Origin: an uncultured Collinsella sp.
GTDB lineage: Bacteria > Actinomycetota > Coriobacteriia > Coriobacteriales > Coriobacteriaceae
Reading direction: 5' to 3'
Length of the DNA: 27,672 nt
Assembly (NCBI GenBank): GCA_902388545.1
Contig: CABMPS010000003.1
Coordinates: 1-27,672, forward strand
Positions 12,674-15,910 of this stretch are shown piece by piece. A program made the position numbers and the translations under genes. How positions within the stretch are numbered: the first letter of the stretch is position 1; every line of letters begins with the position of its first letter. Below the pieces are notes generated by a model, which saw nothing but the letters and a program-made list of their open reading frames with translations, made no database searches and was not told where the DNA came from.

Positions 12674-12736
12674 TCAGACCTCCATCTGACATCGTCTTGC
12701 GCTGATAGATAAACCATAAGAAATAAAACTGAAATG

Positions 12737-12742
12737 ATTATA
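12737..12742 (-). promoter_or_regulatory. pyk -10 box with upstream direct repeats
   Basis: Perfect TATAAT on the minus strand, about 65 nt before the pyk ATG. No good -35 is seen at 16-18 bp. Instead, two similar 11-mers lie on the plus strand, GACCGAATACC (12753) and GACCGTATGCC (12774), 21 bp apart, the proximal one overlapping the -35 region. This suggests activator-dependent or otherwise regulated initiation. The rest of 12780-12960 is AT-rich with no gene I can support. Confidence 0.55.
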
Positions 12743-12966
12743 ACGAAATGCCGACCGAATACCCCAAAAAATCGACCGTATGCCGAATTAGAAGTTCATT
12801 TTTTGCGAAAAAACGGTATATGCAAAAACTTTACCAACCGTTCTAACCGCTGCTATCTGGGCGATATTTTAGTTTGGCGACGCACCGAAGAAAAAACGTT
12901 TTATCAATGTTGAGCATCATACGGTCTGCATCGTTGCTTATGGACCATATTTCCAAATGGATTGTT

Positions 12967-12996
12967 TTGGCTAGACGCGTTGCTTTGGGGTACCAT
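12967..12996 (+). promoter_or_regulatory. Candidate promoter of the Ca2+ ATPase gene
   Basis: TTGGCT (12967-12972), 18 bp, TACCAT (12991-12996). The predicted start near 13003 would give a leader of about 110 nt that contains the whole structured RNA described next. Confidence 0.45.
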
Positions 12997-13010
12997 AGCT
13001 CCACTATCAA

Positions 13011-13107
13011 CTGCCGCTCAGCACGGCAGCCTTGATGAGCCCTTGCCCTTCTCCTGGGAATTATGATCGGGCATCAATCTGCTGAGTGGCCCGAATCCCA
13101 GGAGGGG
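13011..13107 (+). promoter_or_regulatory. Structured leader RNA with two consecutive pseudoknots sequestering the ATPase RBS
   Basis: Four exact helices can be drawn. Hairpin 1: CTGCCG (13011-13016) with CGGCAG (13024-13029), whose entire 7-nt loop CTCAGCA is complementary to TGCTGAG at 13080-13086. Hairpin 2: TTGAT-ga-GCCC (13032-13042) with GGGCATCAA (13069-13077), whose loop segment CTCCTGGGA (13051-13059) is complementary to TCCCAGGAG (13096-13104). The last segment contains the Shine-Dalgarno AGGAGGGG of the ATPase gene, 8 nt before its ATG. The order S1-L1-S1'-S2-L2-S2'-L1'-L2' gives two pseudoknots in series. It does not match a riboswitch class I recognise (not yybP-ykoY, M-box, NiCo or fluoride by eye). 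I infer translational control, ligand unknown. Confidence 0.72.
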
Positions 13108-13114
13108 ACTCTAT

Positions 13115-15796
13115 ATGCAAAAGGAATACCTGTCCGCCGCGGCGGAGGTACTCAGCGACCAGGGCGTCGATGAGAACCTCGGCCTAAGCAACGACGAGGC
13201 GTCGTCGCGTCTCGCCAAGACAGGCCCTAACAAGCTCGAGGAAGCCGAAAAGACACCGCTGTGGAAGCGCTTCTTTGAGCAGATGGCAGACCCCATGGTC
13301 ATCATGCTGATCGCGGCCGCGGTTATCAGCGCGCTTACGGGCATGGTCAAGGGCGAGGCGGACTTTGCCGATGTTGCCATCATCATGTTCGTCGTTATCG
13401 TCAACTCGGTGCTGGGCGTGGTCCAGGAAGCCAAGAGCGAGGAGGCCCTCGAGGCCCTGCAGGAGATGAGTGCGGCGCAGTCCAAGGTGCTACGCGACGG
13501 CAAGCTCGTGCACCTGCCGAGCGCCGAGCTCGTGCCCGGCGACGTGATCATGCTCGAGGCGGGCGACTCCGTCCCGGCCGACTGCCGCGTGCTCGAGAGC
13601 GCCACGATGAAGATCGAAGAGGCCGCGCTCACCGGCGAGTCCGTGCCCGTCGAGAAGCATGCCAACGTGATCGAGCTCGCCGCCGGCACCGACGACGTGC
13701 CGCTCGGCGACCGTAAGAACATGTGCTATATGGGCTCCACCGTCGTGTACGGCCGTGGTCGCGCCGTCGTGGTCGGCACCGGCATGAACACCGAGATGGG
13801 CAAGATCGCCGGCGCCCTGGCCGAGGCCAAGGAAGAGCTCACGCCGCTGCAGGTGAAGCTCGCCGAGCTCAGCCGCATCCTCACCATCATGGTGATCGTC
13901 ATCTGCGTCGTCATCTTTGGCGTTGACATCCTCCGCCACGGCGTGGGCAACGTCCTTACCGATCCGACTGCCCTGCTCGACACCTTTATGGTTGCCGTCT
14001 CGCTCGCCGTCGCCGCCATCCCCGAGGGCCTTGTTGCCGTCGTGACCATCGTCCTTTCGCTTGGCGTGACCAAGATGGCCAAGCGCCAGGCGATTATCCG
14101 CAAGCTCTCTGCTGTCGAGACCCTTGGCTGCACACAGACCATCTGCTCCGACAAGACCGGTACCCTTACCCAGAACAAGATGACCGTCGTCAAGCACGAG
14201 CTCGCTGCGCCCAAGGAGAAGTTCCTGGCCGGCATGGCGCTGTGCTCCGATGCTCAGTGGGACGAGGAGCTGGGCGAGGCCGTGGGCGAGCCGACCGAGT
14301 GCGCGCTCGTCAACGACGCCGGCAAGGCTGGCCTCACCGGCCTGACTGCCGAGCATCCGCGCGTGGGCGAGGCCCCGTTCGACTCGGGCCGCAAGATGAT
14401 GTCCGTGATCGTCGAGACCTTGGATGGCGAGTACGAGCAGTACACCAAGGGCGCGCCCGACGTGGTGATCGGCCTGTGCACCCATATCTACGAGGGCGAA
14501 AAGGTCGTCCCGCTGACCGAGGAGCGTCGCGCCGAGCTCGTGGCCGCCAACAAGGCCATGGCCGACGAGGCTCTGCGCGTGCTGGCGCTGGCAAGCCGCA
14601 CCTACACCGAGGTCCCGAGCGACTGCAGCCCCGCTGCGCTCGAGCACGACTTGGTCTTCTGCGGCCTGTCCGGCATGATCGACCCGGTCCGCCCCGAGGT
14701 CGCCGAAGCCATCCGCGAGGCCCACGACGCTGGCATTCGCACCGTCATGATCACGGGCGACCACATCGACACCGCCGTGGCCATCGCCAAGCAGCTGGGC
14801 ATCGTCACCGATCGCAGCCATGCCATCACCGGTGCCGACCTCGATCGCATGAGCGACGAGGAGCTCGACGCGCACATCGAGGACTACGGCGTGTACGCCC
14901 GCGTCCAGCCCGAGCACAAGACCCGCATCGTCGAGGCCTGGAAGTCGCGTGACCAGATCGTGGCCATGACGGGCGATGGCGTCAACGACGCCCCGTCCAT
15001 CAAGCGCGCCGACATCGGCGTGGGCATGGGCATCACCGGCACCGACGTCACCAAGAACGTCGCCGACATGGTACTTGCCGATGACAACTTCGCTACCATC
15101 ATCGGCGCCTGTGAAGAGGGTCGTCGCATCTACGACAACATCCGCAAGGTCATCCAGTTCCTGCTTTCGGCTAACCTTGCCGAGGTGTTCTCGGTGTTTA
15201 TCGCCACGCTCATCGGCTTTACCATCTTCCAGCCGGTGCAGCTGCTGTGGGTGAACCTGGTCACCGACTGTTTCCCCGCGCTCGCGCTGGGCATGGAGGA
15301 TGCCGAGGGCGACATCATGAAGCGCAAGCCGCGCAACGCCAAGGACGGTGTCTTTGCCGGACATATGGGTCTGGACTGTGTGGTCCAGGGCCTAATCATC
15401 ACCGTGCTGGTGCTGGCGAGCTTCTTTGTGGGCGTGTACTTTGACATGGGCTACATCCATATCGCCGATATGATCGCCGGCAATGCCGACGAAGAAGGCG
15501 TGATGATGGCGTTCATCACGCTCAACATGGTCGAGATTTTCCACTGCTTCAATATGCGCAGCCGTCGTGCGTCGCTGTTCACCATGAAAAAGCAGAACAA
15601 GTGGCTGTGGGCTTCCGCCGCGCTGGCACTGGTGCTGACGGTGATCGTAACCGTGCAGCCGACGCTTGCCGAGATGTTCTTTGGCCCCGTGACGCTTGAG
15701 TTCAAGGGCGTTGTCGCTGCCCTGGGCCTGGCCTTCCTGATCATCCCGCTGATGGAGATCTACAAGGCGATCATGCGCGCGGTCGAGAAGGAGTAG
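13115..15796 (+). CDS. P-type Ca2+-transporting ATPase (SERCA/PMCA type)
   Basis: Membrane pump that exports Ca2+ using ATP; 893 residues. Actuator TGES at 173-176, phosphorylation site CSDKTGT (Asp346), nucleotide site KGAPD (445-449), hinge TGDGVNDAP (619-627). Ion-site residues match the P2A type: AIPEGL in TM4 (Glu304), SANLAE in TM5 (Asn687, Glu690), and LLWVNLVTD in TM6 (Asn714, Thr717, Asp718), with NMVEIF in TM8. This set covers both Ca2+ sites of SERCA, so Ca2+ is the likely ion, although bacterial members can also move Mn2+ or Mg2+. ATG 13115 follows AGGAGGGG at 13100-13107, which is buried in the pseudoknot leader. Transcribed alone, with a terminator about 185 nt downstream. Confidence 0.93.
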   Translation: MQKEYLSAAAEVLSDQGVDENLGLSNDEASSRLAKTGPNKLEEAEKTPLWKRFFEQMADPMVIMLIAAAVISALTGMVKGEADFADVAIIMFVVIVNSVLGVVQEAKSEEALEALQEMSAAQSKVLRDGKLVHLPSAELVPGDVIMLEAGDSVPADCRVLESATMKIEEAALTGESVPVEKHANVIELAAGTDDVPLGDRKNMCYMGSTVVYGRGRAVVVGTGMNTEMGKIAGALAEAKEELTPLQVKLAELSRILTIMVIVICVVIFGVDILRHGVGNVLTDPTALLDTFMVAVSLAVAAIPEGLVAVVTIVLSLGVTKMAKRQAIIRKLSAVETLGCTQTICSDKTGTLTQNKMTVVKHELAAPKEKFLAGMALCSDAQWDEELGEAVGEPTECALVNDAGKAGLTGLTAEHPRVGEAPFDSGRKMMSVIVETLDGEYEQYTKGAPDVVIGLCTHIYEGEKVVPLTEERRAELVAANKAMADEALRVLALASRTYTEVPSDCSPAALEHDLVFCGLSGMIDPVRPEVAEAIREAHDAGIRTVMITGDHIDTAVAIAKQLGIVTDRSHAITGADLDRMSDEELDAHIEDYGVYARVQPEHKTRIVEAWKSRDQIVAMTGDGVNDAPSIKRADIGVGMGITGTDVTKNVADMVLADDNFATIIGACEEGRRIYDNIRKVIQFLLSANLAEVFSVFIATLIGFTIFQPVQLLWVNLVTDCFPALALGMEDAEGDIMKRKPRNAKDGVFAGHMGLDCVVQGLIITVLVLASFFVGVYFDMGYIHIADMIAGNADEEGVMMAFITLNMVEIFHCFNMRSRRASLFTMKKQNKWLWASAALALVLTVIVTVQPTLAEMFFGPVTLEFKGVVAALGLAFLIIPLMEIYKAIMRAVEKE

Positions 15797-15819: not shown

Positions 15820-15910
15820 GGCCCGACCGCCTGCGGGGTTTCTTCCTCGCTGGTCCTCGCGCTTCGCGCTGCGGGATCGCTCGGAAGAAACCCCTCCCGG
15901 CGGGCGGGCC
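15820..15910. repeat. Large GC-rich palindrome downstream of the ATPase gene
   Basis: Nested inverted repeat. Outer arms GGCCCGACCGCC (15820-15831) and GGCGGGCGGGCC (15899-15910) match 11 of 12; inner arms GGGGTTTCTTCC (15835-15846) and GGAAGAAACCCC (15883-15894) are perfect over 12; the 36-nt centre can fold again around GCGC-TT-CGCGC. No T run follows, and a separate true terminator lies 43 nt further on. It looks like a REP/BIME-type element or an mRNA 3' stabiliser. Confidence 0.75.

Follow-up and report, generated by a model that had tools for sequence, protein, structure and literature searches.

Results

A leader RNA precedes a putative Ca2+-ATPase gene

The window, by which we mean the whole stretch of 27,672 nucleotides that was analysed, carries on its forward strand a gene for a P-type cation ATPase, which is preceded by a leader RNA whose parts are listed below. 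We infer the 5' end of this leader from a TACCAT hexamer seen by eye at 12992-12997, since scanning for promoters gave no sigma-70 consensus site. A search of 12850-13130 revealed nothing terminator-like, so that control by the leader would probably be exerted at translation.

13115..15796, + strand: P-type cation (Ca2+) ATPase gene, encoding 893 aa
13003..13117, + strand: leader RNA of the ATPase mRNA through the start codon, with a putative 5' end
13011..13029, + strand: hairpin 1, part of the alternative, SD-hidden fold and present in the MFE structure
13006-13010/13032-13036, + strand: predicted extension of hairpin 1 in the SD-hidden fold
13013..13023, + strand: P1 5' strand, pairing with 13080-13090 (11 bp, one G-U)
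13080..13090, + strand: P1 3' strand, the loop-1 pseudoknot partner of the initial annotation, lengthened
13032..13042, + strand: P2 5' strand UUGAUG-AG-CCC, with both-side changes and compensatory events in the outer six pairs
13069..13077, + strand: P2 3' strand GGGCAUCAA, with both-side changes and compensatory events
13043..13045, + strand: UUG, 5' side of the internal loop and presumed ligand site, within GCCCUUGCC
13059..13068, + strand: AAUUAUGAUC, 3' side of the internal loop and presumed ligand site, within GGAAUUAUGAUCGGG (modal form)
13046..13048, + strand: P3 5' strand
13056..13058, + strand: P3 3' strand, overlapping the anti-Shine-Dalgarno; the two are mutually exclusive
13051..13059, + strand: anti-Shine-Dalgarno CUCCUGGGA, pairing with 13096-13104 in the MFE fold
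13096..13104, + strand: Shine-Dalgarno (SD) segment UCCCAGGAG, which holds AGGAG and is sequestered by the anti-SD
13067..13072, + strand: UCGGGC, pairing with GCCCGA (13089-13094) in the SD-hidden fold

The product of 13115-15796 contains all of the Pfam domains Cation_ATPase_N/C, E1-E2_ATPase and Hydrolase, and its nearest solved structures are Ca2+-ATPases of the LMCA1 type (lmo0841 among the names), followed by SERCA and SPCA. Motifs of M4, M5, M6 and M8, which we take to be Ca2+ sites I and II of SERCA, recur in 101 ATPase frames, a count in which near-identical genomes each enter singly: PEGL in 100, S(A/S)N(L/I)AEV in 97, NL(V/I)TD in 99 and the M8 E in 96. Judged by sequence, the pump thus keeps SERCA-like Ca2+-site motifs and is a putative Ca2+ transporter. 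It differs from LMCA1, which in our alignment has A and R at the places of the M5 and M8 glutamates of the Collinsella ATPase. The ATPases of named Collinsella aerofaciens loci are 98-99% identical to the window's pump, which marks the source genome as C. aerofaciens-like. Just 3' of the gene, visual inspection showed an inverted repeat (GGGGUUUCUUCC...GGAAGAAACCCC, 15835-15896) that may be a terminator or else a repeat element.

The leader and its core are conserved

When 65 genomes of the family were searched by blastn with 13003-13125, the leader turned up in 53. The window and 21 relatives make up a set of 22 close sequences, over which mean identity is 99.9% in the 110-nt leader, compared with 91.7% in the 150 nt upstream and 88.0% at third codon positions of a 900-nt stretch starting one codon ahead of the start codon. 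When 65 DNA stretches upstream of ATPase loci were read by eye, the core was present in 64 (L130 lacks it). These stretches were drawn from 77 loci fetched by the ATPase and therefore measure the frequency of the RNA among pump loci rather than that of the pump among RNA loci.

The core has the layout GCCCUUGCC - loop - GGAAUUAUGAUCGGG. Its 5' strand is exact in 119 of 121 distinct leaders, and its 3' strand takes the modal form in 74/121 and is one change away from it in a further 36/121. The 5' leader holds a conserved, structured and aptamer-like core of the kind by which riboswitches are recognized.

P1 and P2 show compensatory change

The initial annotation had described two hairpins in tandem, each with a loop complementary to a downstream segment. 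Both hairpins can be read directly from the sequence: hairpin 1 at 13011-13016/13024-13029 (6 bp), and hairpin 2, in which 13069-13075 pairs with 13034-13037 and 13040-13042 while 2 nt (13038-13039) bulge out. The 9-nt segment 13051-13059 is, as stated there, the exact complement of 13096-13104, which contains AGGAG. The 7-nt loop 13017-13023 is also an exact complement of 13080-13086, but the helix of which it is part is really one of 11 bp (13013-13023/13080-13090), which we call P1. Inside hairpin 2 lies an inner 3-bp helix that had not been listed, P3 (13046-13048/13056-13058, with a 7-nt loop in the window), and it competes with the SD pairing.

On an alignment of 61 leaders (A1), both-side changes occur at all 11 pairs of P1, with 76.9% of cells paired when a subgroup lacking P1 is included, and at four of seven pairs of P2 (six of nine when P2 is extended). 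In P3, two of four pairs covary and 97.0% of cells are paired. Hairpin 1 pairs in 62.9% of cells, and by eye many relatives do not have it. We counted compensatory branch events on an ATPase protein tree that covers 59 of the 61 rows, using a phylogenetic null that is lenient in that partners are drawn from all columns, conserved ones included. P1 shows 20 events (null mean 2.01) and the outer six pairs of P2 show 18 (null mean 0.59), values that none of 300 nulls reached in either case. The corresponding counts are seven for hairpin 1 (2/300 nulls as high) and two for P3 (11/300), and P3 does not stand clearly above the null because it is too invariant. Covariation across relatives, which the initial annotation had proposed as a test of its four helices, is therefore abundant in P1 and P2, while hairpin 1 is not general.

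Two further pairings were considered and rejected. GGCAG/CUGCC as an extension of P2 (columns 24-28/106-110) has two events, with 90/300 nulls as high, and is unsupported as a separate helix. The AUCAA/UUGAU extension of hairpin 1 has 0 compensatory events on A1, and for this reason we treat it as a prediction for the window only.

P1 was also tested without an alignment, in 65 leaders outside A1 that include close relatives of A1 rows. Between the P1 regions, the longest helix, which in some rows lies off the place of P1, is 7.85 bp with a leader's own strands and 6.72 bp with swapped ones, and 0/2000 permutations did as well. The strands of P1 diverge widely in sequence, for example GCGUCCGGCA/UGCUGGGCGC (L156), UCUAACCG/UGGUUGGA (L175), GCUUGGC/GCCAAGC (L176) and ACUCGAUA/UAUCGAGU (L262). 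By eye, P1 is missing from L051, L052, L054, L077, L088, L096 and similar leaders, most of which have instead a longer P2 and an extra GC-rich hairpin between the core and the SD.

The RNA occurs with one gene family

Of 396 Coriobacteriia genomes, 161 had a match to a covariance model of the RNA (R1), as did 23 of 396 Actinomycetota genomes; both searches were run with Infernal's stricter filters, which lose weak matches. In both searches the matches are confined to two families, and a third family of the same order gave no match with this model. We take the two to be Coriobacteriaceae and Atopobiaceae of the Coriobacteriales, because the named ATPase loci belong to Collinsella, Enorma, Olsenella, Thermophilibacter, Atopobium and other genera. 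A search of 396 genomes of the phylum for the core pattern gave 22 matches, all in the same two families. Among mobile elements, viral contigs contained no core pattern, and plasmids and phages had no leader match.

The ATPase is present at E <= 1e-200 in 181 of 396 genomes of a same-size draw. All 161 RNA-bearing genomes are among these 181, and the numbers of RNA and ATPase matches agree in 161/161, including seven genomes with two of each; since two ATPase candidates were scored per genome, counts above two could not show. The remaining 20/181 ATPase genomes have no detected RNA, and in the eight of these 20 whose upstream regions were read, no intact core was seen by eye. A set of 55 loci had been retrieved through the RNA or excised around its matches. 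In 54 of them tblastn places the ATPase frame immediately after the core, in the 55th (L182) the frame was seen there by eye, and no other gene was seen under the RNA among the loci read. Since the RNA was seen before one gene family only, gene context gives a single clue to the ligand.

Two mutually exclusive folds are predicted to hide or free the SD

We describe the leader by two folds: one made of P1, P2 and P3 around the almost invariant internal loop, and the other combining hairpin 1 with the 9-bp SD-burying helix. P3 and the SD helix exclude each other because both need G13056-13058, and full-length P1 and hairpin 1 do so because both need 13013-13016. The free leader of the window folds at -44.8 kcal/mol (z-score -2.82), and 0/200 shuffles are as stable, which together with the compensatory changes in P1 and P2 bears out the view that the arrangement is more than chance. 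This MFE structure consists of hairpin 1 with its extension and the pairing of 13051-13059 with 13096-13104, with GAGCCC (13037-13042) paired to bases just past the SD, and P1, P2 and P3 are all absent from it. When P2 and P3 are forced, the window folds at -37.9 kcal/mol and the 11-bp P1 is included.

The four helices of the initial annotation thus represent a superposition of two alternative sets, {P1, hairpin 2} and {hairpin 1, SD helix}. Its claim that all four form one double pseudoknot did not hold up, given the bases shared between P3 and the SD helix and between P1 and hairpin 1, and the free MFE, which holds one set; a static double pseudoknot was accordingly not favoured. Its broader claim, a conserved leader RNA able to bury the RBS of a Ca2+-ATPase-like gene, is borne out. 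Its suggestion of a switch coupling an ion to translation is compatible with the data, which fit two alternative nested folds and hence a switch rather than a double pseudoknot.

To extend this to other leaders, SD exposure was computed for 121 leaders, with transcript 5' ends guessed from TANNAT hexamers and the SD counted as hidden when its mean unpaired probability was below 0.5. In the free folds, the SD is predicted to be hidden in 114/121 leaders, with a median exposure of 0.01. With P2 and P3 forced, the median rises to 0.55, and the nearest-neighbour model puts the median energetic cost of this change at 5.6 kcal/mol (quartiles 3.6-7.4). Exposure then exceeds 0.5 in 64/121 leaders and rises by more than 0.2 in 95/121, and a strict change from closed to open is seen in 59/121. 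It falls in a few leaders (e.g., L088, L111 and L171), and no change is seen in L075, L085, L112 and L128, which belong to the second copies in the C. tanakaei group. The computed exclusion between the expression platform and the aptamer fold is therefore clear in the window, present in many leaders and strict in 59/121. With everything upstream of the SD shuffled, mean exposure is 0.328, compared with 0.117 for the real leaders. Taken singly, 108/121 leaders are less exposed than the mean of their own shuffles, and 261/1452 shuffles hide the SD at least as well as the real leaders do.

Pairing between the core and the SD appears to be under selection

CC occupies the position directly 5' of AGGAG in 78 of the 87 leaders with the common UCCUGG core, compared with nine of 148 other putative SDs, the latter being AGGAG sites, taken from the window and the named loci, that are placed like an SD before reading frames 150 codons or longer. 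This conserved CC is most simply explained as pairing to the P3 3' strand. Across the 121 leaders, duplexes between a leader's own core and SD are slightly more stable than swapped ones (-23.85 vs -23.1 kcal/mol), a small gain that 0/5000 permutations matched. In the 34 leaders without UCCUGG, the difference is weak (-21.35 vs -20.57 kcal/mol; 97/5000 permutations). These comparisons and permutations, like the CC count, take the leaders as unrelated, so that kinship stays in them.

Individual leaders illustrate both sides. Compensatory pairs of anti-SD and SD occur as UCCCGGG/CCCGGGA in L038, L040 and L164, and L170, L171 and L182 have a different solution, GAUCGGG(C)/(G)CCCGAUC, a helix of 7-8 bp just 5' of the SD. 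The own SD pairs worse than most swapped SDs in L047, L048, L093, L102 and L262. Altogether, sequence comparison shows P1, P2, the conserved core, the link to the ATPase gene and the extended SD to be features of this leader.

The leader matches no known RNA family searched

The initial annotation could not assign the leader to a known riboswitch class, and Infernal with Rfam agrees: among 4227 families of Rfam 15, cmscan found none at or above its gathering cut-off over the leader, the tRNA-Phe match lying elsewhere in the window. At permissive E-values, apart from the tRNA, there were only weak matches far below the cut-offs. One of the closest known systems is yybP-ykoY (RF00080), a cis-regulatory leader of metal exporters, including P-type ATPases, that is ON when the ion is plentiful; it resembles what we propose for the Collinsella leader both in this logic and in its position before a metal exporter. 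The yybP-ykoY riboswitch binds Mn2+ through a docked architecture of two loops (L1/L3), whereas the Collinsella core has, by eye, one internal loop, and its stem with a 3x10 internal loop is unlike that of yybP-ykoY. RF00080 gave no match in the window or in eight relatives, and it exceeds its cut-off in 0/246 Coriobacteriia genomes. Weaker matches occur in nine of these 246 genomes, none of them in the two families that hold the RNA. Two such sub-cut-off matches, in L271 and L272 from other Coriobacteriia, lie on loci with an ATPase sequence that is 41-44% identical.

The metal-ion riboswitch families Na+-I (DUF1646), Li+ (nhaA), NiCo and M-box gave no match in 12700-13300 at E up to 10. These are likewise ion-sensing leaders, several of them on transporter genes, according to the part of PMC9971707 consulted. 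Riboswitches are named there for Na+, Mg2+, Mn2+, Li+, F-, Ni2+ or Co2+, and the words calcium and Ca2+ are absent from the review text examined. A 2022 review names K+, Ca2+ and Zn2+ as strong candidates for undiscovered riboswitch classes in the portion we consulted (PMC10043782). A search of an open-licence literature collection gave no paper on a calcium riboswitch.

Collinsella-1 RNA (RF01700), which like the present leader comes from Actinobacteria of the human gut, has no match in the window; its table row in the excerpt of PMC2864571 consulted reads 'y n n', the column heads lying outside that excerpt. Word searches in the available portions of PMC11109978, PMC8632094, PMC8040213 and PMC2864571, the supplementary tables of PMC8040213 aside, returned nothing on the leader. 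It may be among the thousands of human-microbiome RNA candidates in those tables, and the motif may be listed in a 2017 study of 224 candidate RNAs.

A metal-ion ON switch is the favoured reading

We propose that the leader is a riboswitch-like RNA controlling the start of translation of a SERCA-like Ca2+-ATPase through two exclusive folds, most likely as an ON switch for Ca2+, and we put the probability of this reading at about 0.62. The two-state behaviour is a computed prediction. Direct ligand binding, the identity of the ligand and the ON direction are what we infer. In the ligand-free state, the extended SD (CCCAGGAG) would be paired to the loop and the 3' strand of P3, and hairpin 1 would tie up the 5' strands of P1 and P2, so that the RBS is hidden and translation low. 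Hairpin 1 and the SD helix would be the stable ligand-free state in the nascent mRNA. A metal ion, most likely Ca2+, would bind the UUG/AAUUAUGAUC loop and stabilize the P2-P3 core (and P1). With the GGG strand held in P3, the anti-SD would be lost, the SD freed and the pump translated, so that the exporter would be made when its own ion is plentiful. The median cost of 5.6 kcal/mol could be supplied by ligand binding together with co-transcriptional folding.

The conserved SERCA-like motifs of the pump favour Ca2+, with Mn2+ as a possible alternative. A riboswitch that senses something other than Ca2+, whether a different ion or a small molecule (Mn2+ being the first choice, ahead of Mg2+, Na+ or a metabolite), is unlikely, although it has several points in its favour: Mn2+ can be exported by bacterial P-type II ATPases that carry a Ca2+-pump annotation, genes of this kind are preceded elsewhere by the Mn2+ class RF00080, and the weak RF00080 matches on L271 and L272 lie on ATPase-holding loci. 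Also on its side is the caution, in the consulted parts of PMC10043782 and PMC9971707, that the specificities of ion riboswitches are easily misassigned. Weighing against it are the Ca2+-site motifs kept by the pump, including the M5 and M8 glutamates, whose assignment we presume, as well as the failure of RF00080 to pass its cut-off in any of the 246 Coriobacteriia genomes and the location of all nine genomes with weaker matches outside the two RNA-holding families.

Control by a protein, another RNA or thermosensing would fit the strong conservation of the core, which could equally mark a protein site, but a near-invariant asymmetric internal loop, covarying helices and an expression platform that uses strands of the core itself form the usual anatomy of a riboswitch, and a thermosensor would need no near-invariant core; we consider this quite unlikely. 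Still less probable is a double pseudoknot that hides the SD with P3 intact, whether constitutive or as a ligand-dependent OFF switch, the picture drawn in the initial annotation. The window's 7-nt P3 loop does contain CUCCU, which could form 5 bp with AGGAG while P3 stays closed. Against this, 55/121 leaders are exactly CCCC-UCCU-GGGG, whose closed 4-nt loop could pair at most in part, 33/121 have no UCCU in the core, and the CC before AGGAG is most simply read as pairing to the P3 3' strand. Chance complementarity deserves almost no weight: 100 nt of GC-rich RNA will often hold short complementary stretches, but the covariation, the phylogenetic null, the alignment-free test and the conservation of the leader all oppose it. 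The ion-responsive ON switch thus remains our preferred reading, and the leader is probably a new riboswitch candidate class acting as a translational ON switch for a metal ion, for which Ca2+ is the most likely.

A bolder form of this proposal, which we rate at somewhat less than even odds, is that the small core (P2, the UUG/AAUUAUGAUC loop and P3) constitutes, in these two families of Coriobacteriales, the first natural class of Ca2+ riboswitch, in which a rise in cytoplasmic Ca2+ would turn the pump on and which would include variant paralogues. If true, a Ca2+ riboswitch could be the first of its kind, and it would show how an RNA discriminates between Ca2+ and Mg2+, which is far more abundant. 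With its length of about 110 nt and its position before a Ca2+-type pump gene, the Collinsella leader makes the question of a Ca2+ riboswitch directly testable.

Divergent ATPase leaders

One genus (g21) has no RNA by eye, and its ATPase leaders in L205, L207, L208 and L209 share a conserved stretch around GGUCGUAUCGUGUAUCC. In several genomes of Collinsella tanakaei/ihumii, a second tandem ATPase lies about 3 kb away and is accompanied by a variant RNA (GCCUC..GAGGCCC, AAUUAAGAUC); the loci of this group are L045, L075, L085, L089, L112, L119 and L128. The variant RNA, with AAUUAAGAUC and a changed P2, may be tuned to another concentration or ion.
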